Below, piece by piece: positions 35,201 through 64,000 of a stretch of 64,000 bases of DNA (position 1 is the first letter of the stretch; each line of letters opens with the position of its first letter). The position numbers and the translations under genes are program-made. This DNA comes from Salminus brasiliensis. Its lineage: Eukaryota; Chordata; Actinopteri; Characiformes; Bryconidae. Location of the stretch: contig NC_132878.1 of assembly GCF_030463535.1 (NCBI RefSeq), positions 28,860,261 through 28,924,260 of the forward strand. Reading direction: 5' to 3'. Under the pieces are notes generated by a model. The model saw only the letters and a program-made list of their open reading frames with translations, did no database searches and was not told where the DNA came from.

Positions 35201-38200
35201 CTGCTGTGACCACTGTCAAACGTATCCCATGAGATTATGGGTCACTACCTGTGTCAAATTTACCTGTCTAGGAGGAACGTCACTAATTCTGCATTCAACT
35301 TCGTCCCCTCTGGGTATAAATTTACCATTTTCCTTTCTGGCATTTTTTCCCCCTTTTTACATTTTTGGCCAGCATATTGTGTTTTTTGCCTACAGCTATG
35401 TAGGGCACGTATCCAAGCATCTGGTTTGGGGTGCTATCTGGCACCTAATACACATACTGACGCCATTTCTATTATTTTTAATTATAAACAACACAGTTTT
35501 AAATCAGTAAGGAAGAGAAATTTGACTAATGATCCTTCAACCCCTCAACGTAGAAAGGCTTATTACGCAGTACAGTGTATTACTCAGTAACTACACAACT
35601 TCTACACAACTAACTACAAACTCCTGGGACCATTCTCTGGTAATAGACATTTGTAATTACACTTTTGGCTATGTTAATAAGATGCAGCTAGGGCTGGGCG
35701 ATATGGTAAAAATACTATATCACGATTTTTAAAGACTTTTTTCTCTCCACACGATATTTATCACAATACATGTAATCACAGACTAAACACATCAGTAGCG
35801 ACAGATCCTTATAAACTACTACTCAGATACTCTCCTGTACTGAATACAGTAATTTATACTCAACATCTGCTGCTTTTCCTCCAATTTAAACCAGTCTAAT
35901 TACACTGTTAGTAATGAAGCCTGCAGCTGATCAATGTTTATTAAGCACCAACAGTATCCTCCATGTACTAGCATATTGTTATCATATATAATAATAGAAT
36001 TTATCATGATACAATATTGTCATATTGCCCAGCTCTAGATGCAGCTATGATGTTTTAAAACTTGTTTAGGTAGACAGATTTGACAGACCTCTGAAACAAG
36101 TAAAGGAAGTTTTGGAAGTGTGTTTACTAAGATGAGATTGGTGGTGGTCTAGTGTTTGTTAGCAACGCTTTGATTACTCTCCTAGAACTGTTTCTTTAAT
36201 CCAACACGTGAGAAAGAGAGAGAGACAGAGACAGAGAGAGAGAGAAAGTATATGGTGTTTGTGTTTTCGCTGCTGAGCAACAATCCCAGCACTCAGTGAA
36301 TGTTCAGGGGAATCAGAGCGGGAAATAAACACACACACACACACACACACACACGCGTTAATATTTTAAAAGGGAAACTCAGCATTACAGCCACCAAGCT
36401 ACTCCTGTTACACACAGACACACACTCCTCAGCATTAGCTATGTGACCTCAATGCATGTCCTATTTTATTATGTGTGTGTGTATTAAAGAGTTTAATCAG
36501 TTCTGAAGTGTTTATAAATGTTTTTATTAACCAGCGTTCATCACATTACTTAGCATGCACCACATGCTTTACTGATAGCTTTATGGGCACATCTAGCATT
36601 TCCTACAAGCCCAGGAATGATACCCCAGAAGTAGGGCAGATGCACTTGGCACAAAGAGAAATTTCAAACTAGATGTAGTTTTTAAACTAGTGGTTGAGTG
36701 GTGCGTCAGTTCTGACAGTATTGGTTTAAAGGTGGGTGAGATGCTGTTCCCCTCTCACATCTGTAGCAGACAGATATAGTAGTAAATACTACACAGCAGT
36801 TGTATTGTAATCGATTACTATCACAACTGTATAAACTATATAATAATGTCATTGTTTTCGTTTCCATTATTATGCTATATGGTGCTGTTTATGGGCTCCA
36901 TAAACTGCATCTGGACTACTTCTGGGCCATTCTTCCAAGTGGCATGTGGGAAATGCTAGATAGTACCCAAACTATACAGAGACTTTTAGGAAAATGGGTG
37001 GAGTTCTGGTCATAGTAAAAAAAAAAAAATTGTGTACCTGTTTGCGGTTCTGCATTCTGGTTCTGTACAGTCTTCGAGCGGTGTAGTAGATAAAGTATGC
37101 GACGGTTGCAGTGGTGATGACGATGAAGGACACAGAGATGAGGAAGATGGAGTAATGACTCATCATCGGCTCGTAAACCCGCCCCACCTCTATTGCCATG
37201 GTAACGGGCACACCTTCTCGCAGCAGCTGGGCCAGCACAGTGCCGCCCACATTACCCATCATCACTGCTATGATGCTAGTGCCTGCACACACACACACAG
37301 AACACATAAACCTATGGATATAACCATGGAGATCTTTCTATGAAATGCACTTCTGCTGGTGCTTGATTTTTAATATCCACCTCGCTCACTTCTAATTAAC
37401 ACAGTTTAGTTCATTTGTGTTAATGCAGCATAACTTGTTTGTGTTCGTGTGGAACTTGACAGGCTACAGGCAACAGTGAGCTCCCGTCACTGACCAACAG
37501 CCTGACAGGGTCCGACAGTAGATGACTGTTGTGAGAGCGTTTGTGAGCTGTAGCGTGTGCTCAGTGTTCCTGCAATGTTTGCTGAAGACGAGAGACAGTG
37601 GTGAGGCAATCATCAGTCGGCCGCAGACTGGACCCCTATAGCAACGGCCCCGCTATCCAGAGTGATCCCGGGATCTACTTACTGATTAGCTGACCAGCAA
37701 CAGGTTTCAGTCAAACTGCTGATCAATCTCCCAGAAACTATTCCGTCCTGTTCCTTTAAACATTCAAAATACACACCCTCCACAGCTCCTCAGAGGACTC
37801 ACTGATGACGAATGATAGGATATATGCAAAGTCAGGTCTCTACATGACTCTACATCTGTTAATGCTCCAAGCTAAAAGTGCAGTGTTGAAGGTAAAGTGC
37901 GGCTGTCAGGCCATGTGAACAGAAATGTTTTTAACCTGGATTTTAAAATTTGCTTGCACTACTTTAGTTTGGACTCAAGGCTCAACTAGCTGACCTGTGT
38001 CTGTGAATCTCCATGGATTCCAGATCTCTAAACATATCAGTGATGTATTTTGGGTCTGGATCATTTAGTTACTTATAGACCAGTAGCAGCACTGTAAGAT
38101 CTATAACTAACGAAAGCCAGCGTAGTGATTTCAGAGTGCAGTTGTCCTCGCCATAAACAGTCATATGAAGAGCGAGGAGTGAAAGAGAGAAAGAGCAGCC

Positions 38201-41200
38201 AGGTACGCTGTAATGCTGGAAAAGCTAGAAGCTCTGCATGTCTGAACTGGATCAGGAACAGGGTGTTTCAGCGGATGGAGAATGTAGCATCAGGGTCACT
38301 CACTTTCCCCAGCAGCACTATGTGGTTTTCTGGGTCAGTGGACTTTTTTAGATTGATACTGAAGGAACTGGGGGAATGGAAGAGAATACAGCCCACTTTG
38401 TGTCCAGCAGGGTAGTTGGAACTGGAGGTCTCTGTAGGTACTGGCGGTCATTTAATGACCACAACATGAATGACAACGAAAGAGGCCGGTAAAACGGATT
38501 GTCTCGAAGTGCAAGAGTTGGTGTAAAGACATTGTGTCTTAAAGGGAAACTCCACCCACCAACTCCATCCCTAAAATCCTCTGTGTAATTCAGTGGCTGA
38601 AATGAATGCATTCAGAGTGGGGTTTGGTGTAAAATGGTAAATTGTACCCAATCTCACTGATTGGGTTTTCTTCATAGTGGTAGTGATAAGACTACACAAA
38701 TATAGCCAGTTATTTATAATCCTATATTACCAGTTAACCCACATATCTTCTTAGTAATGATGATGGGGAAAATAGTGGCAAACCTAAACAAACACATTTT
38801 CTTTGGGAACGATTTTTGAGACTGTTTTTGCTGCGTTTACTGCATGTCTCCCTCCACCATTGATGATATGTGATTTATAATAGTGGTGTACTAACTTTGG
38901 TTCCATTCAGCACTGCTGTGAAAAAGGCAGGCTCCTATACATTTCTCTAGAACGGAGTGTTTCACACTAAACCCGCTCAACAAAGATTTCAACCACATTA
39001 AATTCTTACTATTCAACAACAAAGCAAGGTTTTAATCCATTCATGTTGGAACTTGTGTGGCCCCAATTTCATGCCCATGCTGACCCTAAAATGCTGTTGG
39101 CTGGCTCCTGGGCTGACCCATGGTTCCACCGGGGCCAAGCAGATTCTAGAGACTGGAGTTAGGTAGTATTGTTCTTGCAGCTCAAGGGATGTCAGCGCAC
39201 AGAGGTGCAGCTGCTAGGTGCAGCACTGCAGAGCAAGAGAAGCCCCGGGTGGCAGTGTTGTGGGAGGCGAGTTTGAGTGAGTGTGTGACGTCATGTCCAG
39301 CCATCTGAGGATCACACACGCACACCGCTGTACCCGCAGGGAGATTATCTGACAAATACTGGAATGCTGCATCAGTTCTTCGCCACACAAAAACACAGAT
39401 AGAGCTGGACATGCTATGAAGATAGCAGAGCGTGGTTGTGGCAAAGGTGCGATTGAAGTAAATGGTATGGTCAGGGGTGAAGGTGCAGCCATGGTTAAGG
39501 TATGGTGAGGGTGAACGTGGAATTAAGGTTAAGATGTGGTGAGATAAAGGTGCTATCAAGGTTAAGGTGTGGTGAAGGTTAAAGCATAGTGGAGGTGAAG
39601 GTGCGGTCAAGGTCAAGGGGGTTGGCGAGAAGGTGCTGCCATGGTTATGTCTGGTGGGGGTGAAGATGCAGTCAAGGTTATGGTCTGGTGGGGGTGAAGG
39701 TGCAGCCAAGGTTACTGAGTAGTGGGGTGATGGTGCAGTTCAGGTTAAGGTGTGGTGTGGTGTGGTGAAGGTGCAGTCAAGGTTAAGGTGTGGTGGTGTG
39801 AAGGTTCGGTCAAAGTTAAGGTGCGGTGAAGGTTTGGTCAAGGTTAAGACATGGTGAAGTTGTGGTCAAGGTTAAGGAGTCGTAGGGTGAAGGTGCAGTC
39901 ATGGTTAAGGTTTGGTCAAGGTTAAGACATGGTGAAGGTGTGGTCAAGGTTAAGGAGTCGTAGGGTGAAGGTGCAGTCATGGTTAAGGTTTGGTAGAGGT
40001 AAAGATGCGATCAAGGTTAAGGTGTGGTTGAGTTGAAGATGGTTTAAGGTGAAGGTAGAGTGGGGTGAAAGTACAGATGGGGTGAAGGTGTGGGCAAATT
40101 TAAGGTCAGGAAGGGGTGAAGATGCAGTCAAAGTTAAGGTGTGGTGTGATGAAGGTGCAGTCAAGGTTAAGGTGTGGTGGTGTGAAGGTTCGGTCAAAGT
40201 TAAAGTGCAGTGAAGGTTTGGTCAAGGTTAAGACATGGTGGCGGTAAAGGTGCGGTCAAGGTTAAGACGTGGTGAAGGTGTGGTCAAAGTTAAGGAGTCG
40301 TAGGGTGAAGGTGCAGTCATGGTTAAGGTTTGGTCAAGGTTAAGACGTGGTGAAGGTGTGGTCAAAGTTAAGGAGTCGTAGGGTGAAGGTGCAGTCATGG
40401 TTAAGGTTTGGTAGAGGTAAAGATGCGATCAAGGTTAAGGTGTGGTGGAGCTGAAGGTGGTTTGGGGTGAAAGTGCTGTCGGGGGGTGAAGGTGTGAGCA
40501 AGGTTAAGGAGAGATAGGGTGAAGGTACCGTCATGGGGTGAAGGTGCTATCGTGAGGTGAAGGTGTGGGCACATTTAAGGTGTGATGGGGTGAAGCTGCT
40601 GTCGGGGGACGAAGGTGTGGGCAAGTGTAAGGTGTGCTGGGGTGAAGGTGCTGTCGGGGGATGAAGGTGTGGGCAAGTGTAAGGTGGGTTGGGGTGAAGG
40701 TGCTGTCATGGGGTGAAGGTGCTGTTATAGAGTGAAGGTGTGGGCAAGTTTAGGGTGTGATGGGGTGAAGGTGCGATCGGGGGGTTTAGGTGATGTGATG
40801 GGGTGAAGCTGCTGTCGGGGGACGAAGGTGTGGGCAAGTGTAAGGTGTGCTGGGGTGAAGGTGCGGTCGGGGGTGAATGTGCTGTTGGGGGGGTGAAAGT
40901 GTGAGCAAGTTTAACTTGGGGTGGGGTGAAGGTGCTGTCATGAGGTGAAGATGTGGGCAAGTTTAAGGTGTGATGGGGTGAAGGTGCTGTCATGGGTTGA
41001 AGGTGTGGGCAAGTGTAAGGTGGGTTGGGGTGAAGGTGCTGTCATGGGGTGAAGGTGCTGTTATAGAGTGAAGGTGTGGGCAAGTTTAGGGTGTGATTGG
41101 GTGAAGGTGCGGTCGGGGGGTTTAGGTATGATGGCTCAGGTGTGGCAATGACCAACTCATTCCTCTGAACCGAAGTCAGTGTGTTGATGCTCTCAGATGA

Positions 41201-42034
41201 GGTGCAGTCATGTAATTTATTGGGAATTTAGGAACTCATCCGCTTCTGCATCCACTGGACACCAACTTTCTGGTGTTAAAGACAAGGGTCAGTGTTCGAC
41301 AGCAGCCTTTTGGATGCAGATATTTTGATGTGTTTAGGCTGAGAGGCTTGTCAATTTTAAACAGCATAGCATAGTAATGGATGAATAGGGTTTGTGTAGA
41401 TGTATCAGACTGTCCGAAAACAGGCAGAAAAAACAAGCCCACCGATTGAAAAAATTAAAACCCTACGAGCAAAGTAACCACTACATTTGGTAATTTTTCA
41501 GTTTTAAAATAAGGATGAGATTGTATAGGCACTATGTAAATGTAGGACCACCCACAGTAATACTGTGTACTGCAGTATTATTTTGAGACTGTATAATGCT
41601 ACGAAGAAAGCAGATAGAGCCTTGGTTGCACTTGCATTGATTTTGGCTGATGTTCATAAATGGTCGGAACTGAAACATGTTTTTTATGTTTTGATCCACA
41701 GTGGGTTTTATAAGCGGTAGTGTGTGTATGTGTGTGTGTGTTTTGTAACATCTGTAGGTCTATGTAAATTCTCTACTTCTGCCACTGACCGAAATTCCAC
41801 AACCATCGATCAGTCCAGCACTTTAACCCCCACACACCAGTCTGTATAATTACACACACATGCGCATGCGCATGCACACACACACACACACACAAAACCT
41901 CCAGTCCAGCCTGAATCAGGAAACATGATTTACAGGTTTTAACCAGGAAAGAATGCAGCCAAGTCTGCCCTTAACACACAAGCACAAAACAGCAGAGGTC
42001 GGCTTACTGGTTTGGCAGCCTTAAACTTCATTCT

Positions 42035-42114
<80 letters not shown>

Positions 42115-42854
42115 GTTGAGGTACTAGCAGCTCAGGTAATAACGTGAGGGACAGAGTGTAACCTACAAACCATTCAGAACCCAACTGTCATCTTTACCAT
42201 ATATATCAGCCACAGTCACTCATATCCATAGTGCTGAACCGTGTACCTTATCAAACTAAACTGAAATTCTCCATTCGACCTTAAACACTGCGACTGTTCG
42301 ATTAAACATTAACCCTTCTCCTTCATTTTCATACACACACTGATCTCTCTACCTGCAAACTGGAATATCTCATCTTTACTACTACTCCAGCATTTACTTA
42401 CTGCTGTGTGTAGACATTCTACTACTAATACAGTATTATTTGTTAACTATTCGTGATTTTAACTGTCCGTGATATTAAACTTTCTTTTTCATATTTATGG
42501 CATTTATATATGATCTTTTTTTGTTTGATGTTATGTAACATTTAACATTAATATTATTAAATGCATGTAATGGCATAGATAACATACAATAGGTCATTTT
42601 ACATGGATGTGTTGTCTGTGGTATTTAATCTTTAATACTGTAATAGAATTATTAAGAAATATTAACAAATAATATTATTTAAAACTTAATATTGACACTA
42701 AGATTTACTTGTGCCATCTGTAATACTTTACATTCAATATTACATGTATGTAATTACATAATCAATAACTTATTACTATGATTTTCAGTGTGTGTTTACC
42801 TGGATGTAATTAACTGTGTGTTATTAATTGTCTAATATATATTTATAATACCAG

Positions 42855-42890
<36 letters not shown>

Positions 42891-43688
42891 CACTAATAAT
42901 AATGATAATAATAATAATAATAAGACCAATGGTGCCATTATGTACATGTAACAACATTAAATGTATTACAGATGACATACTGGTAAACACACTGCATTAA
43001 AAGTAATAATAATATAATATAATATAATATAATAATAATAATAATAATTAGAAATATCAGATATATAAATCTAAGCAGCATTTAATATATTATAATATTT
43101 ATTTTAAAATAATATTATTTGTTAATATTGGTATTATTTCTAAATACTTCTATCACTAATATTAAATATCACTAAATATTAATAAATGTTATTATTATAT
43201 AATATTTATTATTACATATTATTATTATTATTATTATTATTACCAGCACCAACAGCAATAACAGAGTGTGTATGTTTACCCGGATGTGCCATCTGTATGA
43301 CGGTGTTCTCGGTTCCGTCCTCATTGTAGATCACCGCCGCGGCTGCCCCCTTCAGCGCCGCGCGGTTGATCTTCTCTGTGAACGTGCACCCGTTCCCCCG
43401 CCGTATGAGCGCGATCCAGCCGGGGCCCGCGTGCGCGCCACGGAAGCGCGTGCCGGGGTCGCAGGCGTGCACAGGTTCGGCCAGAAGTACGCGGGCCAGC
43501 AGCGAGCGGTGCGGGGACTCGCGCCCGAACAGCGCCGCCTCGCGCCGCCACACGGAGAGGTTCCCGGGAAGCGCGCCCGAGCTCAGGTTCACCTGCACGC
43601 TCAGGTAGGCCGAACAGAAGGTCGAAGCGCGCGCGCAGCACCACACCTGCGCCAGGCACGCGAAAGCGAGCCACCGCAGAGCGGACAT
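32287..43688 (-). CDS. rnf128: RNF128 (GRAIL)-like transmembrane RING-H2 E3 ubiquitin ligase, six exons
   Basis: Exons on the minus strand: 43688-43280, 37282-37038, 34989-34918, 34402-34320, 33347-33251, 32538-32287. They total 1158 nt with consistent phase, giving 385 aa (human RNF128 has 428). A signal peptide (aa 1 to about 21, [20 protein letters not shown]) leads into a protease-associated (PA) domain across exons 1-2. A single TM segment lies at about aa 181-203, starting [11 protein letters not shown]. The RING-H2 starts at C251-x2-C254, continues C269-S-H271-x2-H274-x2-C277, and ends with CPMC. The linker [17 protein letters not shown] and the block [15 protein letters not shown] are characteristic of the Goliath/GRAIL family. 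GRAIL ubiquitinates membrane and cytoskeletal targets from endosomes and controls T-cell anergy in mammals (established). RNF128 is preferred over RNF130/RNF150 because the downstream neighbour is tbc1d8b in the same orientation, as on human Xq22.3. The C-terminal exon carries a His/Thr-rich run encoded by a CA-like tract. It lacks the distal acidic tail I expect from mammals, so another 3' exon or an alternative donor near 32310 is possible. Confidence 0.88.
34440..34815. repeat. Degenerate 'attctccaccaa' repeat in rnf128 intron 3
   Basis: About a dozen units containing 'ttctccaccaatcac' or 'ttgcccaaacac', imperfect. Begins about 40 bp upstream of the exon 4 acceptor. Confidence 0.75.
35689..36037. 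mobile_element. hAT-type MITE, copy 2, with 8-bp target-site duplication
   Basis: Begins tagggctgggcgatatgg and ends catattgcccagctcta. Perfect 8-bp flanking repeats, gatgcagc, lie at 35681-35688 and 36038-36045. At 349 bp it shares termini and parts of the interior with the copy at 1303-1581 but is longer. It lies in rnf128 intron 2. Confidence 0.9.
39440..41145. repeat. Degenerate minisatellite, unit about 30-33 bp, in rnf128 intron 1
   Basis: Repeats of 'ggtgaaggtgcagtcaaggt' with 'taaggtgtggtg' and derivatives such as 'ggggtgaaggtgctgtc'. Units drift along the array. Open frames here are repeat translations. Confidence 0.9.
42028..42113. repeat. Compound (CT)n(CA)n microsatellite
   Basis: CT units run to about 42079, directly followed by CA units to 42113, in rnf128 intron 1. 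Confidence 0.95.
42853..42893. repeat. (TAC)n followed by AAT-rich triplets
   Basis: About 13 ACT/TAC triplets followed by 'aataataatg' triplets. Rnf128 intron 1 around 42840-43260 is otherwise very AT-rich with TATAAT-like runs. Confidence 0.9.
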
Positions 43689-44040
43689 GTCGCGAGCTCT
43701 GCTTAGTTCACACTCTCTCGCTGAAATACAGACAGAAACACACAAAAATACCAAAACAAACACACACTCCCGCACTGCGAGTACGTGTTCGAGGCTCCAG
43801 ACGCCGCCGCCGCTGCTGCTGCTGCTCACCTGAGCCGTACTGCGCTGATTGGTTCCGTGCACGCAGGTGAGCTCTGTCGTTCGGCAGGACCCACCTACGC
43901 TGTCCCACACGCTGAGGCTCATTGGCCGGCAAAGCGGAAGCGCTATGATTGGACAGTTCTCTTCCAACCGCTGCGATGGGCGGGCCAGATTAGACAATCG
44001 ACGGACTCAGGTCACCATGACAACCACAGGACTCACAGGT
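43689..44040 (-). promoter_or_regulatory. rnf128 promoter / 5' UTR, CpG-rich
   Basis: GC- and CpG-rich sequence runs from exon 1 (43280-43688) upstream to about 44000, including a (GCC/GCT)n run near 43800-43827. It ends before the GT microsatellite at 44096. The position fits a CpG-island promoter of minus-strand rnf128. The exon itself contains strings of CGCG typical of an unmethylated island. Confidence 0.55.
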
Positions 44041-49145: not shown

Positions 49146-52100
49146 GGGGGGGGGGGGTGTCATACTGAGGTACTGTGTAATGTCGTTGCTGTACTGGCTT
49201 TTTCTGACCAGGAGGTGGCTCTCTGGACTGAGTGAGAAATACACCGGCAGCACCTTCTCCTCATAATGCAGCTCTCTCTCTGGAAAACACACACCCACAC
49301 AATACAAAGATGTAAAACCAGAATTGGAGGGTTGGGACTGGAAAACGCAATTAACATTTAAAAGAGAAACACAATTCAATTAGGATAACAAAGTTAAAGA
49401 AAGTGCAGCTGTGATTTAAGCAAGGTGTGCCTCACCTAGCTCCTCTTTCTCCTGAACCTCCCAGCAGCTCCACCTTTCTCTTGCAGGGGGGTCTATTCCA
49501 CGCATCTTCAACACTTGCAATACTAGCTCCGCTGCAGTTAGGTTCACACCCATCTAACACACACACACAAATGCATGGGCACATACACTGTGCTATTAGA
49601 TGCTGTGAACTGTGCTGTTTTCTAACACAACAATCACACCAGGTTCTAAAAGCAGTGTTCTCACTTGTTCTAACGAACCACATTAACACAGCAATCACAC
49701 CACAGATCATTCGCCCCCGGGTTCGTATCAATGGAACCAGTGTAAACAGGCCCCTAGATCCCTCAAGTGAAAATTCTGAAGTTAAAAAACATTAAGCTAT
49801 AAAAAAGGCTGACAATCACCTGCACAAGTAGCTCCGCCCCTTCTCCTTTCTTCTCCACATAAACAGTGCAGATGGTGAGGGAGGGAGAGAACTTTGCGGA
49901 CGCCTGTCGCACATCAGTTATCAACAGGAAATGAAGTGTGTGAGAAAATTCAGCCAGTCTCAAATACTACAGGTTCTCAGACGATCTATGCAGAAGTGAA
50001 ATGTTCAGCAATACGAGGCAAATTAGCTCTACATTACCCAATATCCCTTTCACCTCTCACCTGGTCAGCGAGCTTGTTTAGGGCGAGAGAAATTGCATCC
50101 AACTGCTTCTGAAGCTCTGCCTGCGGGACCTGGAGAATGGAATTCATTTAACTGGGATTCTTGACTTTTTTTCTGTCTCTCAAATGTCAATACAATTCTA
50201 CATGAGTCCAACCTTTAAATGTGTAACAACGTGCTTAACACTGTACAGATGTTACAGTAACTCACGCTTAATATTTTAGGGTAACTAACACTACAGACTT
50301 TACAGTAACACATTTGTCATGTTAACTCATTACAGATGTTACAGTAATTAACACTATAGACTTTACAGTAATGCATTTGTCATGTTACAGTAATTTATGC
50401 TAAATATGTTACCCTAATTTGTATTACCAATGTTACAGTAAATGTTACAAATGTTATTGTAACTTATGTTTAAGACTTTACAGTAACTAGCGCTACAGAC
50501 CTTACAGTAAAACATGTATCATGTTACAGTAGCTCATGTTGAAGATGTTACAGGAATTCACATTGCAGATGTTACAGTAACTCATGTTACAGATGTTGCA
50601 GTAACTCACGTTTAAGAATTCACAGTAACCAACACTACAGATTTTACAGTAACACACATTTATTATGTTACAGTGCAACTCATGTTACAGAAAATTCTGA
50701 TGACCAAAAACCCATGTAAAAGATGTCACCGTAACTCACGTTAAAGATGGCACAATAATTATGGATCATTTCTTCCACCACTGTGGAGGCCCTTGGGTCT
50801 GACCCAGCAGTCTGAAAAAGTGTCGGTCCAAACACGATTCCCAGATTCCTCACGGTCATCTGATTGACCTCAGACAAATGCTGCACACTAACACACACAC
50901 AGCAGCGAACAACACAGGTATTCAATCATTACTGCGGAGTTAAAGAGTTGTACAAGGGAAATATTTGCACAGACTTTTCATGTATCTGTGTATGTGTGTG
51001 TGAGTGTGTGCACAGTTGGCCGCAAAACCCTGCATGGTGAAACTGTGTGCGTTTTTGTGTGTCAGATTAGTGGAAGTGAAAATGAATTGAAAACAGTAAA
51101 GAGGGTCTTCTTCCTGTGAATATAAGTGAGATGTTAGCTGGTGAAGGTGCAGCAGTGAGTGATACCAGTAGAGATGGTTCAGAAGAACTTTCAGTGTGTC
51201 TCTGTTGACCTTGGGCAGACCGGCCAGAAGAGCCTGATACATGCTGACTTTAGCACGGTGGTGAGTTACATCTGGAGAAAACAGCACACAACACACACCA
51301 TTTTATCTGATTTAGAGTCTAAATGATTCAGAAGCTCATCTATTCAAGGTTTAACCGGTTTCGATTCTAACTGGTTTAGAGTCAAACTGATTTAGAGTTT
51401 AAACAATTCTATGTCTAATTGATCCAGAGTCAAGCTTTCTCTTCAAAGATTCAACATTTATCTTTCTCAAGGCCTCGCTGATTCAGAGTCTAGCTGATTC
51501 AACGTTTATCTTTCTCAAGGCCTCGCTGATTCAGAGTCTAGCTGATTCAAAGTTTATCTTACTCAAGGCCTCGCTGATTCAGAGTCCAACTGATTTAAGG
51601 TATAAATGGTTCAGTATTTAACTAACTGATTCAGAGTCTAGCTGATTCAGAGTCAATCTGACTCAATGAGTAGCTGATTTAACTGATTCAAGGTACTGGT
51701 TCAGGGCTTTAGTGGCTCAGGTGAAATTGATTCAATGTCTAGCTGATTCAGATGATTTAGTATGTAACTAAGGTCTAACTGATTCAGTGCATGTGTGTGT
51801 ATGTGTGTGTCCTACTAACCTGTTATGTTGAGCCATTTTAGTGTGTTTTCTGCTCCGTTAAACACTCCACCTTTGACCTCTCTAAAGAAGCGTTTAAGGG
51901 TGTTTGCGACATCGTCCACTCCGTACTCATCGGGTACACACACACTCCGCGCGTCCCGCAGGAAACTGTCTAGCAGCGCAGACACTCTAGAATTAACACC
52001 ACACTTCCGATAGATCCCCGCTGACATGAGACCTGGACACACACAGACACACGCACAGTGTTTAATCTGTGAGTGATCCATCTATTGATTGATACTGACT

Positions 52101-54562
52101 ATAGTGTGTGTATTTGGGTACCGTGGCAGATGACGTAGTCAGTGCAGCGCTGGACGCAGATGGGTATTCCTGACTCGGTGAGTTGTTGCTGTGACAGCAT
52201 CTCAGTCCCAGATCCTGCACCCAGCCTGAGCGCGCTTATCCAGCCAGGGAAATGCGGCCTGCGGTCAGAACACACACGCACACTACCACCCCTCCACCCT
52301 AACACCATGTCCCCTGCACCGTTACCTACAGCTGCAAACACACAAACAGACCAACTTGATTAAAAAATAAAAAATAAAAAAAACACACTTCCTCACCGGC
52401 AGACCTCAGTCTGTTAGAATGGGTGACCACACCTTCCCCACCCTCACACTCAGCACAGGATGCCCAGAAGGCTTCATTCTCTCACCCATGCCACCTACAC
52501 TCTGTACACCATTGCAAAATACAGCTCCAACACCATCAAGTTCACAGACGGCATAACAATAATCTGTAACATCACCAACGAAGCTGAGGGACCATACAGG
52601 GAGCTGCTTGCAGAGTGGTGCCAAACCAAGGAGCTGTTTGTTGACTTAAGGAGGGGGAGCATAGTGCACACACCCCTGAGCATCGAGGAGACAGCGGTGG
52701 AGAGATTCAGCAGCTTCAAGTTTCTCTGTGTCCACATATCTGAGGATCTCAAATGGTCCCACTGTGGAGAGCATCCTGGCCAGCTGCATCATGGTCTAGT
52801 ATGGCCCTGCAGAGAGTGGTGAAAACTGCCCAGTACATTACTGCAGCTGCCCTCCCACCCATACAGGACCTCTACAGAGATTCTGGAGGAAAGCCATCTG
52901 AAAAGAGGTACAGGAACATCAGAGCCCGAACCACCAGATTCAAGAACAGTGTCTTCCCACGTGCTTTTAAACTGGTCTCACCTGCAACGCCAACCTCAAC
53001 CTGAACACACACACACTGATTCTGCCAGTCCACTTACCATATCCACACTGAACTCCATTAGCTCAGGGACTGTATGCACTCTGCACTTCAACTGAACTCC
53101 CTCTCTGTACATAAGCTGAGTACTGTTCTCTCTCTCTGAACACTGGCTATGCTCATTACTGTACTGTACACTCTGTTGACATATGTAGTGATGCTATAAC
53201 ACCAGCACCTCAGCATTCACTCCTGAACTCCCTGTTTTACTCTTCATTTACATGCACAGCACATCACTGCTCTACATATTTATTCTATTTTACTATTAGT
53301 ATAGTAACCTAGTTTGAACCTTAATCACCCAGCCTTCATGCAAACATTTGTTCATGCACATATTTGTATATTTTTGTATTTTTTGCCTAACACACACATT
53401 TCACAAACTTATTTCTTCTCATATATTGTGATAATATAATCAGACAACCCACCTCACCCGAAAATTGTGGGTCTCCCTCATGATAGATAGCGGCTACCTA
53501 GTGTACGCAAATTACACACAATGTTCAGAATATAGTTTTCTTAAGCAAGTGAGAGCGAGAGCGAGAGCGAGAGAGAGAGAGAGAGAGAGAGCGGTCCAAT
53601 AGGTGAGACGAAGAGAGAGCCAGTAATAGACGCAGCTAGAGAGGGACACTGATAGGCTACAATAATACCAATCAGCTGTCCATGTGGGTGGGGTTTATAT
53701 TCAACCTCTCTGTCAGTGTCCATCAGTTCAGTTCAGTTCTGCAGCTCCACAGCAGAGTGTTCAAAAACATAATATAGACACACTTCACCCCAATCTACAC
53801 TAACCCCCCCCCCCAACAGTTGTCAAAGTAATAAATGATAGTGACTAAAACAGTGATGTTGGCTCTAAAAGTCATGCTCTGGTGTCATTTCATTAGAACA
53901 ACTAGCTAACTGTCTCTATAGATGATCTCTGTGATAAGGCCAAACTCCCTATAGACTTCATAATCCATATAATAGAGTAAAATGTTTATGAGAGTAGGGT
54001 TTTTTGGGGGCAGGGATAGTGGTGCTACCTACAGGAATCAGTGTGTGTGTGTGTGTGTGTGTGTGAAACTCACTGAGTGTGTGTAGTCGGAGCAGATTGA
54101 TGTCCTGCACAGAGTCCTGCAGAAGCACCTGAAGCCTAGAGCCACTCAGACAGAACCAGCCAATTCCAGAGCTGCCTTCATCACAGAGCAGGCGACCCAG
54201 TCGATCACAGAGTCCACACACACTACTCAGAGCAGTAGGAAGCATAGCCTGAGACACACACACACAAACATATCATTGTGTGTATCTGTTGTATTAATGA
54301 GTTTGGGGGTGTTCAAACTAGAGTAACTGTGGTTACCGTGGCAATAGCTCTGAACCACTCCTTGATTGTGCTGATGTCATCAGCTCCAAACAGGTAGACT
54401 CGCCCCCCATCCGTGTACAGTTCTAAGGTGTGTTCAAACCTGCCGGCCAATCAAATCAAAGCAATAATCTGTTATAAAGCCATAATACCAGTGCCTCCTT
54501 TACATACAGTACAACACACAAACATCCAATAAATGACTATATAATTATAATGCCAATGATGG

Positions 54563-54595
<33 letters not shown>

Positions 54596-54752
54596 TGACA
54601 GGAGATTGACAACATTACCCATGAGTCCCTGGGCTGTTGAAGGTTAGGCAGATGATGTCACTGGTCTTCATACTTCCACACCGGTGAGTGCTTTGCTCAG
54701 TTTTATAGTAGCTGAACACGCCAGCATCAAGGGAACACCACCGCTGAGAGAA

Positions 54753-54788
<36 letters not shown>

Positions 54789-57766
54789 TTTGCTTTCATG
54801 GTATTTCACTGATACTCCAGAGCAACTCACCTTTAAATCATGTTACACAGGTAGGAGAATGCAATGTTAGGAGTCTTGCCCACAAACCTTTATTGGTGTA
54901 CTGTTAAAGTGGTCAGTGGCAGAGTGGTCATTGTTAGAGTGGTCAGTGGTATAGTAATTTTACTGTATCTGCAGCACACTGAGCTAAAGCTGAAACAGCT
55001 GAAAAGCTTAACCAGTTTTAATTGATCAGAGTGTTGAGGAGAAATCATATCAGAACTGTGATGTGTGTGTATGTGTTTGGCCTGTGTGTGTGTGTGTTAG
55101 GCTCCACCCACCTGCCCTAGGTTTGTGTTCTGTGAATGGCCGATTAGAGGAAGCCACTTTGAACAGGTGTCCACTCCGAGAGGGTGTAGAGGTGACCACT
55201 GAACTCACATCATCTGCACATAAACACAATATTACATTATTCTCTCATACCAACATTTCTGAGGCACCTGGGTGGTGCAACAGTCTAAGCGTTAGCTCCA
55301 TCATCAGGTTGTTGCAGGTTTGATGCTTGGTGATGCTCCTGTTCCTGTCTTGAGAAGTGTCTATGTGTTTCTACACAAAGGCGTAGCAGTCTGGCGTATC
55401 AGTCTGGGTCTCTGTATGTGGATAGCAGAACTGACTGTATTTTTACTGCAGGTAAAAGTGGCATACATCTAAATCTGATCCAATGTTTTTTCTTCTGAGT
55501 AGTCCTGTGGACTGCGGTGCTGTCACTATGATTTGAGGATTACTGTTCAAACCCAGGGTAATGCTGCTTGCCATCAGCAGCTGGAGTCTAAGAGAGTTTC
55601 TTGCTGTCTTAAAACTGAAAAACCTGAAGACCATGTCTTTGAAAAGCCTTTAACGGCTTCAATATCCGTAACAATGTGTGTGTGTGTGTGCAGTGTGTAT
55701 GTCTGTATGTAAGTATCAGCAATGATACTCCTGAATGTGCTCAGTGGTGTGTTATCATGTTAAGCCTCGGCCCTTCAGTGTGAGGGTGTGTGTGTACCTG
55801 ATCTCAGGTTGTGTTGCAGTAGCTCCACCTGTTCTGTTTGCCCGCAGTGTTTTGCGAGGGCTAGAGGAGAAGGGAAATCTGGGATACCAGAGTAGCAGTT
55901 AATATCCGCACCCGAAAACAGCAGAGAGAGAGACTCCATCACATCAGCACCCTGTACTGCAACACACAGTGCCTAAGAGGAAGAGACAGAGGGACAGAGA
56001 GAGAGAGACTTTCAGGACTGTTGGATGTCCTGTTGCTTTATTTACAGCAGGGGGGCTCAAAAGGGCCCCCTGTGAGCACTTCAGACTACGCCTTCCTGGA
56101 ACCCACGTTCCACTGCGATCCCTGATACATGCTATCAGTCAGATGTAATTGATACTGGACACAGGACAATATAACCTGAACCCAGTTGTTGCTTTAGTTT
56201 TGGTGTACACAGTCGGTACACAAGGGGTGTGTCCCAATTCTGCCATCATCCCTCCAACCCCTGGAACACTTAAACCCCTTTAGTTCACAAAGGTGTGCAC
56301 TTTAAAGAGTGCCTGAGGTCTTAGGGCACATGTGTATTACTGACATTGTTGAGTGCCTTCTGCTGGCCAGAGAGCTGGTGTTGTTTCTGGAAAGTTCCGT
56401 GCTGGTACTTTGCTGTGACGTGAGCGAGACGCTCGCTGCTGCTGGACTCCACTTTAAGAACCTCATCATTTGGCACATTCGCTGCCCAGAAGGTGTTAAC
56501 TTTACTGTTGCCTAGCAACAGGAACATCTACCAACAACAACAAAAAAATTAAAAAGTAAAAAGGAAACAGTGAATTAGTAACACAGAACTCAGCAGCAAT
56601 GAGCAGCAGCCAATCAGAGTGCCAGAACACACACACACATGGAAACACTTGGAGAAAATTAGTCAGTAGCTGTGTCCTAAATTGTGCCCTATTTACTTTA
56701 TAGTGCACTACCATACTCCATCGTAATTGGCTAGAAGACTTGCGTGCAGCTTCTCTGAGAAACCCCACCGGTCTGACTGTTCATGCGATGCACTCACATA
56801 CATAATGATGTGTCTGAAATCACTCACGACCTTGATGAACTCTGTTCCCTATAACAGTGCTCTATGTGGTGATCTGGATTTTTACATGTAGGGAATAGTG
56901 AATAGGACACAGTTTCAGACACCGCTTGTGTGTTTTGTAGTTTATGGATTACAGTGTAGTGATGTCTAGCACTGTGTAGGGTTGTGTAGTGTTGTGATGT
57001 GTTGTGTAGTGTTGTGAAGTGCTGTGTAGTGATGCAGGATTGTATATTATTAAATGGTGTTGTGTAGTGTTGTGAAGTGCTGTGTAGTGATGCAGGGTTC
57101 TATAATATTAAATGGTGTTGTGTATTGTTGTGAAGTGATGTGTAGTGATGCAGGGTTGTATATTATTCAATGGTGTTGTGTAGTGTTGTGAAGTGCTGTG
57201 TAGTGATGCAGGGTTGTATATTATAAATTGTGTTGTGTAGTGTTGTGAAGTGCCGTGTAGTGATGCAGGGTTGTATATTATAAACAGTGTTGTGTAGTGT
57301 TGTGAAGTGCCGTGTAGTGATGCAGGGTTGTATATTATAAACAGTGTTGTGTAGTGTTGTGAAGTGCTGATCAGTTTTGTAGGGTTGTATATTATAAATG
57401 GTGTTGTGTAGTGTTGTGAAGTGCTGATCAGTTTTGTAGGGTTGTATATTATAAATGGTTTTGTGTAGTGTTGAAAAGTGCTGATCAGTTTTGTAGGGTT
57501 GTATATTATTATTACATGGTGTTGTGTGTTCTAGTGTTATGTAGTGTTGCAAAGTGTTGTGTAGTGTAGTGTGCACTGTATTGTGGCAACCTAACAGCAG
57601 ATCACAGTGATAAGCATCAAGAAGATTGAGCTGAACAGAGACTCTGGAGGAGATAAGAAGAATTTTACCTTCATCAGGTTTTCAGTCCACAGATGATCAT
57701 TCTCTTTCAGACTAAACACTCTAGACACAGAGGGTCCCAAACACCTGTGGGCATCTGTCACCACAC

Positions 57767-57806
<40 letters not shown>

Positions 57807-58617
57807 TGATCTTTATGAAGTTTATTCTGAATTAAAAGATGATTTTGATTCTGTTCTGTCACTAAAAGGGGTTTGTGTGTTTGTGTGTACCTGCACATTG
57901 TTCACATAGCAGCACACACAGGTTGACTGAAGCCCACTCTGGCAAATCAGCGCCACAGTCCGCACACACACGGTTTGACTCCAAACTCCACAGTCTCTCA
58001 CACACTCCAGTAACTGGTGCTGTGCAGTTCACACACTCCGCCAAACACACACGCCACCGCCGCTGCTCAGCTTCAGAGTCCACCACAAAGCTAAACACAC
58101 ACATGTAGAGGAAGTGATGAAATATCGCTTTAATAGTGAAGGGTTAATAGTGGTGGGGTGATAAACTATCGCTTTATTAATGAAGGGTTAATAGTGGTGG
58201 GGTGATAAACTATCGCTTTAATAGTGAAGGGTTAATAGTGGTGGGGTGATAAACTATCGCTTTATTAGTGAAGGGTTAATAGTGGTGGGGTGATAAACTA
58301 TCGCTTTATTAATGAAGGGTTAATAGTGGTGGGGTGATAAACTATCGCTTTAATAGTGAAGGGTTAATAGTGGTGGGGTGATAAACTATCGCTTTAATAG
58401 TGAAGGGTTAATAGTGGTGGGGTGATAAACTATCGCTTTAATAGTGAAGGGTTAATAGTGGTGGGGTGATAAACTATCGCTTTAATAGTGAAGGGTTAAT
58501 GGTACCTGAAGGTCCGGTAGGGGGTGATGATGCTGAAGGATTTGCCGGACTCCCTCAAACTCGCCTTCCGCAGGTCAATATCAGTGATGCCTACACCATT
58601 CAAATACTCCTACACAC

Positions 58618-58648
<31 letters not shown>

Positions 58649-60148
58649 TGGTTTCAGAAAAATGCAGACATAGCGCTGTAAACATAACACTTGCATGGTG
58701 AAACACACTCACCTGCCGAGTTTTGAACAGGTACATTCTGCAGTCTTTGATGACGGTGTAGACTTTAGTGCGAGGGGATGTCATCTCCAGCAAACCCTCA
58801 GTTCTGACTACAGATGATTTAAAAAACACTCCTCCACCACCATTCTGCTGCTGAACATTCAGAACTTGTTGAAGACATTTTATCCAGTCAGCTCGCTTCT
58901 CTATATCTCACACACACACACACACACACACACACGACTTCATTAATGATTAGTGTGAAGGCTTTAGTGTGCAGGGATTTCTGTGTAGGGATTAGTATTA
59001 GTATGTAGAGTTTGGAGATTAGTGTGAAAGGGATTAGAAATTAGTATGCAGGAATTAGAGATTAGTTTGCAGGGATTAGAGATTAGTATGTACAGGTTTG
59101 AGATTAGTGTGTAGGGATTAGAAATTAGTATGCAGGAATTAGAGATTAGAGTGCAGGGATTAAAGATTAGTTTGCAGGCATTAGAAATTAGTATGCAGAA
59201 GTTGGAGATTAGTGTGCAGGGATTAGAAATTAGTTTGCAGGGATTAGAGACTAGAGTACAGGGATTAGATATTAGTATGCATGGATTAGAGATTAGTATG
59301 TATAGGTTTGAGATTAGTGTTCAGTGATTAGTGGTAGGATATAATGTATAGAGAGTGGTGTAGAGGGATTGCTTTTAAGGTTTAGTGTGTAGAGATGAAT
59401 GTAAAGGGATTAGTGAGTTGGGATTAGAAATGAGTTAGTTTGACTCACGATTGGACTCTGCTTTAAATAGAAAAGTTCGACTCTGAGTGATGAGCTCAAA
59501 TCTCTGATCACCCACAGGCTGAACTGCACTCACACACTGCAGAGACACCATGCGCTTAGAGTACACCTCCTACAGAGGGAAAGAGAAAGAGAGAGAGGGA
59601 GATGGAGAGAGACAGAGACAGAGTGGACACTGGAAATGAAACTGATATTAGGTACTGAATGTAATATTATTAATGATGAATAATTGACAGAATAAAAACT
59701 GGTTGCTTGCTTAATCAAACCTTGTTGTTTTGAAAATATCTCAGATATTCAGAATCCACTTGCACCCAGCGTCTCTGAAACCTCTTTGCTCTGAAAATAC
59801 ACATACACTGATAATACAGAACACACCACATACTTGAGTATATTATAAAGAGATTATTAGAGAGTATTATAGGTTATTATTAAAGATTATTAATTTATTA
59901 GAGTGTGTGGCGAGTTTTAAGGCAGATTGTGGCAAGCCAAGGCTACATTTTTATTCAAGTTGGATGTTTTAAAGCAACAGTAACTACTGTTACTTGTCCA
60001 GTGTAAAACTTAAGATGACTTCCGACACCAGAAACACACATACCCTTTAGGGGGGGTTTTATCAAGCCAACCTGATTTAACAGGCTGAGTCTGCAGCTCC
60101 TCGGAATGGTCAGGAAAACGTACACAGGGTAGATCAATGCTCTCATCA
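47097..60148 (-). CDS. arap1: ARAP-family Arf/Rho GTPase-activating protein, ARAP1-like; 26 exons, 5' end outside the window
   Basis: Minus-strand exons: 60148-60044, 59790-59721, 59569-59449, 58900-58713, 58609-58506, 58090-57891, 57754-57669, 56527-56345, 55972-55798, 55213-55112, 54754-54619, 54439-54337, 54248-54074, 52331-52122 (start could be 52326), 52032-51820, 51271-51166, 50887-50740, 50129-50061, 49903-49820, 49553-49436, 49279-49166, 48992-48862, 48743-48661, 48554-48519, 47767-47704, 47129-47097. Phase holds throughout, giving about 1051 residues. Domains in order: PH1 (GWLDKTPPKG), PH2, ArfGAP zinc finger (CADC-x16-CEQC then AHRCLG with its arginine), ankyrin segment, PH3 (FEHTLELYTDGGRVYLFG), a PH4-like segment, RhoGAP with arginine finger GIYRKCG and NQMTVRNLGIVFGPTLFQT, RA domain, and a last PH (EREWSVQEAKLY, QQWYFCCENEDE). 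ARAPs are PI(3,4,5)P3-dependent GAPs for Arf and RhoA at membranes. ARAP2 is excluded because its RhoGAP lacks the arginine. Many blocks match ARAP1 better than ARAP3, but ARAP3 is not excluded. Missing: SAM domain and N-terminus. The C-terminus (GGNLWMEPK) is shorter than mammalian ARAP1. Confidence 0.85.
48240..48310 (+). mobile_element. SINE fragment (box-B region)
   Basis: 'gctgtgggttcaatacccgg' followed by 'cctcagcaacct' matches the box-B region of the SINE at 46140-46284. It is embedded between G- and C-homopolymer runs. Confidence 0.4.
49100..49157. repeat. (TG)n(G)n microsatellite, ARAP intron
   Basis: About 20 TG units followed by a run of about 14 G, close to the donor at 49165. 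Confidence 0.93.
50220..50735. repeat. Degenerate minisatellite reaching an ARAP splice donor
   Basis: Repeats of 'ttacagtaactcatgttac' with variants 'cagtaactcacgtttaag' and 'gttacagatg'. The most exon-proximal unit includes the real donor of the exon at 50740-50887. Confidence 0.85.
51440..51790. repeat. 48-bp and shorter tandem repeats, ARAP intron
   Basis: Units built on 'gattcagagtctagctgatt' plus 'caacgtttatctttctcaag' and 'gcctcgct'. They decay to shorter 'gattcag' repeats towards the donor at 51819. Confidence 0.82.
52403..53400 (+). pseudogene. 5'-truncated LINE with broken reverse-transcriptase C-terminus
   Basis: Conceptual plus-strand translation gives fragments of a non-LTR RT C-terminus in shifting frames: LLAEWCQTKELFVDLRRG, then FSSFKFLCVHISEDLKWS, then RVVKTAQYITAAALPPIQD and RTTRFKNSVFPRAFKLV. 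Frame changes show it is dead. A long A/T-rich 3' UTR follows. It lies antisense in the ARAP intron between the exons at 54074-54248 and 52122-52331. Confidence 0.75.
54856..54902 (-). mobile_element. SINE fragment
   Basis: On the minus strand 'tacaccaataaaggtttgtg' followed by 'ggcaagactcctaacattgc' matches the body of the SINE at 20651-20835. A short remnant in an ARAP intron. Confidence 0.5.
55262..55612 (+). mobile_element. tRNA-derived SINE remnant, possibly two partial copies
   Basis: 'ggtggtgcaacagtctaagc' is a box-A-like head with a degenerate box B. From about 55535, 'gttcaaacccagggtaatgc' and 'catcagcagctggagtctaa' repeat the body seen on the minus strand at 45385-45597. Confidence 0.5.
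56940..57560. repeat. 57-bp minisatellite, ARAP intron
   Basis: Units from 'gttgtgtagtgttgtgaagt' through 'gctgtgtagtgatgcagggt' and 'tgtatattataaat'. Starts about 110 bp downstream of the donor at 57668. Confidence 0.9.
58113..58502. repeat. 44-bp minisatellite abutting an ARAP splice donor
   Basis: About nine near-identical units ('gaagggttaatagtggtggg', 'gtgataaactatcgcttt', 'aatagt'). The last unit ends at the intron side of the donor at 58505. Confidence 0.95.
58975..59330. repeat. About 22-bp tandem repeat, ARAP intron
   Basis: Units such as 'gggattagagattagtatgc'. Starts about 120 bp downstream of the donor at 59448. Confidence 0.88.
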
Positions 60149-60177
60149 CTAACAAACACACATTAAAAGACATAGTT

Positions 60178-63100
60178 GAGTTCAGACAGAACTGTGTTAG
60201 GCTGCAGTCGGGCTACAGTCGGGTTCAGACAGAACTGTGTTGGGCTGCAGTCGGGTTCAGACAGAACTGCGTCTGGCTGCAGTTGGGTTCAGACAGAACT
60301 GTGTCGGGCTGCAGTCGGGTTCAGAGAGAACTGTGTTGGGCTGCAGTCGGGTTCAGACAGAACTGCGTCGGGCTAGAGTCGGGTTCAGAGAGAACTGTTT
60401 AGACTACAGTCAGGTTCAGACAGAACTGTGTCGGGCTGCAGTCGGGTTCAGAGAGAACTGTTTAGACTACAGTCAGGTTCAGACAGAACTGTGTCGGGCT
60501 GCAGTCGGGTTCAGACAGAACTGTGTCGGGCTGCAGTCGGGTTCAGACAGAACTGTTTAGACTACAGTCGGGTTCAGACAGAACTGTGTCGGGCTGCAGT
60601 CGGGTTCAGACAGAACTGTGTTGGGCTGCAGTCGGGTTCAGACAGAACTGTGTTGGGCTACAGTCGGGTTCAGAGAGAACTGTTTAGACTACAGTCAGGC
60701 TCAGACAGAACTGCGTCGGGCTACAGTCGGGTTCAGAGAGAACTGTGTTGGGCTGCAGTCGGGTTCAGACAGAACTGTGTTGGGCTGCAGTCAGGTTCAG
60801 ACAGAACTGTGTCGGGCTGCAGTCGGGTTCAGACAGAACTGTTTAGACTACAGTCGGGTTCAGACAGAACTGTGTTGGGCTACAGTCGGGTTCAGACAGA
60901 ACTGTGTCTGGCTACAGTCGGGTTCAGACAGAACTGCGTCTGGCTGCAGTCGGGTTCAGAGAGAACTGTTTAGACTACAGTCAGGTTCAGACAGAACTGC
61001 GTCGGGCTACAGTCGGGTTCAGAGAGAACTGCGTCTGGCTGCAGTCGGGTTCAGACAGAACTGCGTCTGGCTGCAGTTGGGTTCAGACAGAACTGTGTCG
61101 GGCTGCAGTCGGGTTCAGAGAGAACTGTTTAGACTACAGTCGGGTTCAGACAGAACTGTGTCGGGCTGCAGTCGGGTTCAGAGAGAACTGTTTAGACTAC
61201 AGTCGGGTTCAGACAGAACTGTGTCGGGCTGCAGTCGGGTTCAGAGAGAACTGTTTAGACTACAGTCGGGTTCAGACAGAACTGCGTCTGGCTGCAGTTG
61301 GGTTCAGACAGAACTGTGTCGGGCTGCAGTCGGGTTCAGACAGAACTGTGTCGGGCTACAGTCGGGTTCAGAGAGAACTGTGTCGGGCTACAGTCGGGTT
61401 CAGACAGAACTGTGTTGGGCTGCAGTCGGGTTCAGACAGAACTGTGTCGGGCTGCAGTCGGGTTCAGAGAGAACTGTTTAGACTACAGTCGGGTTCAGAC
61501 AGAACTGCGTCGGGCTACAGTCGGGTTCAGAGAGAACTGTGTCGGGCTGCAGTCGGGTTCAGACAGAACTGTGTTGGGCTGCAGTTGGGTTCAGACAGAA
61601 CTGTGTTGGGCTGCAGTCGGGTTCAGACAGAACTGTGTTGGGCTACAGTCGGGTTCAGACAGAACTGTGTCGGGCTACAGTCGGGTTCAGACAGAACTGC
61701 GTCTGGCTGCAGTCGGGTTCGGAGAGAACTGTTTAGACTACAGTCAGGTTCAGACAGAACTGCGTCGGGCTACAGTCGGGTTCAGAGAGAACTGCGTCTG
61801 GCTGCAGTCGGGTTCAGAGAGAACTGTTTAGACTACAGTCAGGTTCAGACAGAACTGCGTCTGGCTGCAGTTGGGTTCAGACAGAACTGTGTCGGGCTGC
61901 AGTCGGGTTCAGAGAGAACTGTTTAGACTACAGTCAGGTTCAGACAGAACTGTGTCGGGCTGCAGTCGGGTTCAGAGAGAACTGTTTAGACTACAGTCGG
62001 GTTCAGACAGAACTGCGTCTGGCTGCAGTCGGGTTCAGACAGAACTGCGTCTGGCTGCAGTTGGGTTCAGACAGAACTGTGTTGGGCTGCAGTCGGGTTC
62101 AGACAGAACTGTGTCGGGCTGCAGTCGGGTTCAGACAGAACTGTGTCGGGCTACAGTCGGGTTCAGAGAGAACTGTGTCGGGCTACAGTCGGGTTCAGAC
62201 AGAACTGTGTTGGGCTGCAGTCGGGTTCAGACAGAACTGTGTTGGGCTGCAGTCGGGTTCAGACAGAACTGTGTTTGGCTACAGTCGGGTTCAGAGAGAA
62301 CTGTGTCGGGCTACAGTCGGGTTCAGACAGAACTGCGTCTGGCTGCAGTCGGGTTCAGAGAGAACTGTTTAGACTACAGTCAGGTTCAGACAGAACTGCG
62401 TCGGGCTACAGTCGGGTTCAGAGAGAACTGTGTCGGGCTGCAGTCGGGTTCAGACAGAACTGTGTTGGGCTGCAGTCGGGTTCAGAGAGAACTGTTTAGA
62501 CTACAGTCGGGTTCAGACAGAACTGTGTCGGGCTACAGTCGGGTTCAGAGAGAACTGTGTTTGGCTACAGTCGGGTTCAGACAGAACTGTGTCGGGCTCC
62601 AGTCGGGTTCAGACAGAACTGTGTTGGGCTGCAGTCGGGTTCAGACAAAACTGTGTTGGGCTACAGTCGGGTTCAGACAGAACTGTGTTGGGCTACAGTC
62701 GGGTTCAGACAGAACTGTGTCGGGCTACAGTTGGGTTCAGACAGAACTGTGTCGGGCTACAGTCGGGTTCAGAGAGAACTGTTTAGACTACAGTCAGGTT
62801 CAGACAGAACTGTGTTGGGCTGCAGTCGGGTTCAGACAGAACTGCGTCGGGCTAGAGTCGGGTTCAGAGAGAACTGTTTAGACTACAGTCAGGTTCAGAC
62901 AGAACTGTGTCGGGCTGCAGTCGGGTTCAGAGAGAACTGTTTAGACTACAGTCAGGTTCAGACAGAACTGTGTCGGGCTGCAGTCGGGTTCAGACAGAAC
63001 TGTGTCGGGCTGCAGTCGGGTTCAGACAGAACTGTTTAGACTACAGTCGGGTTCAGACAGAACTGTGTCGGGCTGCAGTCGGGTTCAGACAGAACTGTGT

Positions 63101-64000
63101 TGGGCTGCAGTCGGGTTCAGACAGAACTGTGTTGGGCTACAGTCGGGTTCAGAGAGAACTGTTTAGACTACAGTCAGGCTCAGACAGAACTGCGTCGGGC
63201 TACAGTCGGGTTCAGAGAGAACTGTGTTGGGCTGCAGTCGGGTTCAGACAGAACTGTGTTGGGCTGCAGTCAGGTTCAGACAGAACTGTGTCGGGCTGCA
63301 GTCGGGTTCAGACAGAACTGTTTAGACTACAGTCGGGTTCAGACAGAACTGTGTTGGGCTACAGTCGGGTTCAGACAGAACTGTGTCTGGCTACAGTCGG
63401 GTTCAGACAGAACTGCGTCTGGCTGCAGTCGGGTTCAGAGAGAACTGTTTAGACTACAGTCAGGTTCAGACAGAACTGCGTCGGGCTACAGTCGGGTTCA
63501 GAGAGAACTGCGTCTGGCTGCAGTCGGGTTCAGACAGAACTGCGTCTGGCTGCAGTTGGGTTCAGACAGAACTGTGTCGGGCTGCAGTCGGGTTCAGAGA
63601 GAACTGTTTAGACTACAGTCGGGTTCAGACAGAACTGTGTCGGGCTGCAGTCGGGTTCAGAGAGAACTGTTTAGACTACAGTCGGGTTCAGACAGAACTG
63701 TGTCGGGCTGCAGTCGGGTTCAGAGAGAACTGTTTAGACTACAGTCGGGTTCAGACAGAACTGCGTCTGGCTGCAGTTGGGTTCAGACAGAACTGTGTCG
63801 GGCTGCAGTCGGGTTCAGACAGAACTGTGTCGGGCTACAGTCGGGTTCAGAGAGAACTGTGTCGGGCTACAGTCGGGTTCAGACAGAACTGTGTTGGGCT
63901 GCAGTCGGGTTCAGACAGAACTGTGTCGGGCTGCAGTCGGGTTCAGAGAGAACTGTTTAGACTACAGTCGGGTTCAGACAGAACTGCGTCGGGCTACAGT
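60178..64000. repeat. 31/32-bp satellite array with 2479-bp higher-order duplication, running off the window
   Basis: About 120 head-to-tail units. The common 32-bp unit starts 'gttcagacagaactgtgtcg' and ends 'ggctgcagtcgg'. A 31-bp variant carries 'gtttagactac' in the middle. Positions about 60326-61521 recur at about 62805-64000 with an offset of 2479 bp and appear identical by eye. The unit is nearly stop-free on the plus strand, so it gives long artificial ORFs. It fills the ARAP intron upstream of the exon at 60044-60148. Confidence 0.97.

Follow-up and report, generated by a model that had tools for sequence, protein, structure and literature searches.

A 31/32-bp minisatellite adjoining the 3' splice site of the PH1 exon in a fish ARAP gene

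Introduction

The minisatellite of IFI6 (6-16) is said to carry repeated splice donors, the use of which has reportedly been observed. In intron 18 of ABCA7, a VNTR with a 25-bp unit contains the donor within the array, one cryptic donor borne by a unit is used, and VNTR length correlates with skipping of exon 19 (PMC5954066). The CeRep25B minisatellite of C. elegans lies in introns beside alternative exons, a link that is statistical and holds across the family (PMC4039745). Two further papers provide rules for placing a branch point relative to neighboring AG dinucleotides: of the branch points predicted in humans, about 96% lie at -15 to -55, and the branch zone extends 7-8 nt beyond its bounding AG in the upstream direction (PMC2991248); AGs closer than 12-15 nt to a branch point can be skipped (PMC1431707).

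Here we describe a minisatellite that ends beside the acceptor of an ARAP exon. All coordinates are positions in the window, which is the whole 64,000-nt stretch of DNA analyzed; the exon and the intron are read on the minus strand, and negative numbers count back from the exon.

Results

The exon next to the array (minus strand, 60148-60044) encodes DESIDLPCVRFPDHSEELQTQPVKSGWLDKTPPK and a split G codon, with ttag before it and gtatgt after it. It joins five more exons in frame (59790-59721, 59569-59449, 58906-58713, 58609-58506 and 58090-57891), giving an open product of 264 aa in which Pfam recognizes a PH domain (2.1e-14) and the start of an ArfGap domain (8e-09). The best PDB matches of this six-exon product are PH domains, those of centaurin-delta 1 (2cod, 2.1e-24), which we take to be ARAP2, and of ARAP3 (7yir, 2.1e-15). 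A second PH domain ahead of the ArfGAP was recognized by eye, without a Pfam call, and the product has consecutive PH domains followed by ArfGAP, as in ARAP genes. Colinear frames at 55972-50680 look, by eye alone, like ankyrin, further PH and RhoGAP. The 34-aa exon on its own matched nothing in Pfam or PDB. Exon 60044-60148 is the PH1 exon of an ARAP (ArfGAP-RhoGAP-ankyrin-PH) gene, as an earlier note on this DNA had recognized; its in-frame joining, the Pfam PH call and the PH matches to centaurin-delta 1 and ARAP3 all bear that identification out. Elsewhere in the window, minus-strand frames at 32287-44006 look by eye like a PA-TM-RING ubiquitin ligase, presumably one resembling RNF130/RNF150.

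Upstream of this exon, head-to-tail units within the 10-100 bp range of minisatellites form an array whose 3' end adjoins the acceptor and whose other end lies outside the window (Table 1). The 120 anchors define 119 intervals (91 of 32 bp, 27 of 31 bp and one of 43 bp) with 26 distinct sequences. TRF gives a period of 32, 119.4 copies and a start at 60207; because TRF trims degenerate ends, we followed unit homology by eye, which reaches about 60178. This leaves 29 nt of intron, AG included, before the exon, in line with the same note's placement of the array start and its estimate of about 29 nt of remaining intron. The terminal stretch is identical to a canonical unit at 19 of 26 positions, and the 6/11 match of its 11-nt tail is also reached in 1686 of 59989 windows from the rest of the strand. 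The observed/expected ratio of CpG is 0.65 in the array and 0.40 in the remaining window.

At a lag of 2479 bp, all 107 mismatches within the array fall at 60178-60326; the 2479-bp repeat represents either a very recent amplification or an assembly duplication. Rfam returned nothing at the gathering score for 50000-64000, and a 36-letter unit pattern had no exact match in viral contigs, an unlikely place for relatives. Literature searches listed no paper on the array or on a repeat in an ARAP intron, which does not prove that none exists.

Table 1. Positions of the exon, its splicing signals and the repeat features in the window
Feature	Position	Strand	Basis
ARAP exon, start of first PH domain; first exon base 60148	60044..60148	minus	Frame, splice phases, Pfam/PDB matches of six-exon product
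3' splice site AG (TTAG)	60149..60150	minus	Sequence, in-frame joining
29-nt remnant outside recognizable unit homology; U/UG-rich tract with TTTAAT	60149..60177	minus	Sequence
AG exclusion zone, 43 nt, from A of preceding AG (ACAG, 60193-60192) to A of acceptor AG	60149..60193	minus	Sequence
CCTAAC, strongest branch-site-like motif; candidate A 60197 (-49); the array's single CTAAC-type YTNAY	60196..60201	minus	Sequence
Terminal degenerate unit with 11-bp extra stretch inside; last part CTCAACTATGT without the AG of canonical units (CCCGACTGTAG)	60178..60227	minus	Sequence
31/32-bp minisatellite	60178..64000, past window end (TRF start 60207)	minus	119 unit intervals, 26 unit sequences
2479-bp block repeated within array; 60327-61521 = 62806-64000	60327..64000		1195 bp, no mismatch

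Minisatellites are common in the window: those with a period of at least 10 and a length of at least 100 bp form 14 intervals covering 11052 of 64000 bases (17%), or 12% outside the last array. Three of the 16 ARAP acceptors have an array ending less than 100 bp upstream (59, 81 and 24 bp according to TRF), so arrays at acceptors are habitual in this gene or genome, not peculiar to one intron. The shortest of these distances belongs to intron 58505-58091, whose 415 nt are almost entirely a 44-bp array that begins a few bases from the donor and stops about 24 nt short of the exon. From intron base 6 on, ATTAACCCTTCA starts nine times at an exact 44-nt spacing; eight of the units have GATAG, and the terminal one has GATAT instead. 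All YTNAY candidates in the permitted zone of this intron (-47 and -28) lie inside the array.

Turning to the splice-like words in the units, the earlier note had described an exact 21-nt word ending in CAG as present in most of them. This word occurs only 29 times; roughly one word in two ends in TAG, so that "most units" fails for the exact CAG form (GACTGCAG occurs 52 times, GACTGTAG 56 times and GACTG(C/T)AG at 108 array sites). Its figure of about 120 is correct as a count of one AG at a fixed place per unit. The part of the intron within the window contains 261 AGs, spaced 4, 6, 9, 10, 11 or 22 nt apart with the sole exception of the last gap, which measures 43 nt and ends at the real acceptor; elsewhere on the minus strand, AGs lie a median of 10 nt apart and gaps of at least 30 nt make up 14%. 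If the 13 array AGs nearest the exon were used, three would extend the exon in frame with a stop and ten would shift the frame, nine of the latter meeting a stop within the extension or the exon. None of the 13 gives an open in-frame extension.

We compared the array AGs with 16 acceptors of the ARAP gene, six of them verified by in-frame joining; the other ten were set by eye from reading frame and AG, a choice that may favor T-rich tracts. Between -20 and -4, the T fraction of 258 array AGs averages 0.18 and never exceeds 0.29, compared with a mean of 0.51 and a minimum of 0.35 for the 16 acceptors. The 60149/60150 acceptor has pyrimidine and T fractions of 0.65 each over the same interval (16-acceptor means 0.63 and 0.51), and is thus pyrimidine-rich. 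With its AG, its AG-free zone and a branch-like motif inside that zone, it has the makeup of a standard U2-type acceptor. At many ARAP acceptors (50800-60200) the tracts are UG repeats rather than plain pyrimidine tracts.

We scored the array AGs with splice-site models, as the earlier note had suggested. A pooled model, built on pooled tract composition plus three positions and leaving out each real site in turn, places real sites between -2.4 and 12.9, with 60149/60150 at 2.8 (11th of 16). Array AGs reach at most -3.5, so that none of the 258 attains the score of any of the 16 real acceptors; the array has no AG scoring at least 0, and window positions 1-60000 have 6.95 of them per kb. In a 16-site positional matrix, by contrast, 60149/60150 scores -2.52 (15th of 16); of the 258 array AGs, 31 score at least as high as this site and 156 at least as high as the weakest real site. 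We judge this matrix unreliable because TG repeats in differing register dominate it, and retain it as a contrary result. By pyrimidine fraction only, 37 of 255 array AGs reach the 0.65 of the 60149/60150 acceptor. Masking of unit acceptors by RNA structure was considered and rejected: three stretches, each compared with 150 shuffles, were unexceptional (z of 0.37, -0.39 and -1.45). In a folded 429-nt stretch the real AG is itself predicted to be mostly paired (0.10 unpaired), so accessibility decides nothing.

Branch zones were defined following PMC2991248, applying human rules to a fish gene. For the 60149/60150 acceptor, TNA occurs at -49, -34, -29, -16 and -15, and YTNAY at -49 (CCTAAC) and -15 (TTTAAT). 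The branch point had been expected in either the 29-nt remnant or the array, which is right as geometry, and candidates are present in both. In the remnant, TTTAAT at -15/-16 sits at the short limit and CTCAAC, with its A at -29, is borderline; in the terminal unit are CTGAAC at -34 and CCTAAC at -49. The next AG after CCTAAC is 4 nt downstream, and the -49 site agrees with the bypass and distance rules of PMC1431707 and PMC2991248.

The unit motif ctgaac, which the earlier note had regarded as branch-like, has its A 13 nt ahead of CAG. This is too close, leaving it poorly able to serve that CAG and better placed for the next AG. Among the 115 TGCAG/TGTAG sites, no YTNAY falls in the permitted zone and 25 sites have a relaxed TNA. 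For all array words, YTNAY at a permitted distance was counted at 15 of 255 (13 of 26 AACAG and two of 68 CACAG) and TNA at 161 of 255; most CACAG, CGCAG, AACAG and GCCAG sites have a relaxed TNA candidate. The branch-like motif CCTGAC occurs 15 times in the array with an AG following 14-15 nt later, and the YTNAY density of the array is 4.2 per kb, against 21.7 in the rest. Among the 16 real acceptors, A2, A3, A5, A8, A9, A10, A13 and A15 are without YTNAY, and two of them (A3 and A13) are without even TNA, so the absence of this motif proves nothing by itself. The case against array acceptors rests instead on tract, spacing and branch geometry combined.

Discussion

The array is probably an ordinary minisatellite that expanded in an ARAP intron up to the intact splicing signals of the next exon, a reading drawn from its sequence. 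Expansion would have halted near those signals, with splicing proceeding to 60149/60150 from a branch point located within the AG-free zone. The likeliest candidate, at slightly less than even odds, is the terminal unit's CCTAAC with its A at -49, in which case the AG 4 nt past it would be bypassed; otherwise, -29 or -34 could serve, and -15/-16 would be less likely. The AGs of the array make poor acceptors because their tract is C/A-rich, because AGs recur every 4-22 nt and because the A of ctgaac is 13 nt from CAG. Since the repeated CAG words do not have what an acceptor requires, the real splice site probably works normally.

The earlier note envisaged about 120 acceptor-like words competing with, masking or reinforcing the real site. 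Composition, AG spacing and branch geometry speak against this, with the positional matrix (31 of 258) and pyrimidine fraction (37 of 255) as contrary results. It is accordingly improbable that the units act as weak decoy acceptors, competing by copy number and so lowering or regulating how often the PH1 exon is included: the AG found at a constant position in each unit, the 31 AGs that match the real acceptor in the matrix and the 15 CCTGAC motifs would suit such a role, but the pooled model places none of 258 array AGs among real sites, none of 115 TGCAG/TGTAG sites has a YTNAY candidate and the tracts are C/A-rich. Alternatively, by analogy with the ABCA7 VNTR, the array could affect splicing by holding a reserve of bound factors or by way of the intron's length, such that longer alleles would skip the PH1 exon. 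The ABCA7 precedent (PMC5954066) and the statistical link for CeRep25B (PMC4039745) favor this idea, which we nevertheless consider very unlikely; the three folded stretches show no structure above chance.

It is somewhat unlikely that duplication of the 2479-bp block during assembly created part of the array. The copies at 60327-61521 and 62806-64000 have zero mismatches even though units differ elsewhere, and PMC6868369 describes assembly errors at tandem repeats; however, a very recent unequal exchange would look identical, and the array edge at the exon is independent of the duplication. We are also doubtful, and rather more inclined to disbelieve than to accept, that repeat arrays took over the branch-point role in two ARAP introns and that the splicing machinery sets the end of the minisatellite and shapes its last unit. 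The unit closest to the acceptor carries the strongest branch motifs in each intron, namely CCTAAC at -49 for the 32-bp array and TTCAC (-47) with TTCAT (-28) for the 44-bp array, and neither terminal unit has the AG kept by canonical units. We rejected this shared AG loss as proof of selection, since end units degenerate anyway and n = 2.

As an ordinary expansion, the array offers a clean case of how closely a minisatellite can approach a splice site before disturbing splicing. It also illustrates that counts of CAG words overstate cryptic acceptors, as tract composition, AG spacing and branch distance leave hardly any of these words standing. Should the terminal repeat supply the branch point, a tandem array would have captured a splicing signal, and one could ask whether the AG-exclusion rule limits how far an array grows.

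Among known systems, IFI6 and the ARAP array both repeat splice-like words within a minisatellite, though these are donor words in IFI6 and acceptor words without support in ARAP. With the ABCA7 VNTR (PMC5954066), the ARAP array has in common a tandem array, presumably intronic in ARAP, touching a splice site and splice-like words in its units; the ABCA7 array holds the donor, whereas the ARAP array adjoins an acceptor and is known here from sequence alone. CeRep25B (PMC4039745) is an intronic minisatellite, as the ARAP array presumably is, and a possible carrier of splicing elements, but it is a family and the ARAP array is single. Exons with AG exclusion zones (PMC1431707, PMC2991248) resemble the ARAP exon in having an AG-free zone between branch site and acceptor, with the branch site close to where the zone begins on its 5' side. 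Compared with exons that have distant branch points, the ARAP zone measures 43 nt, its candidates fall within -55, which is the usual range, and its 5' end is made of repeat.
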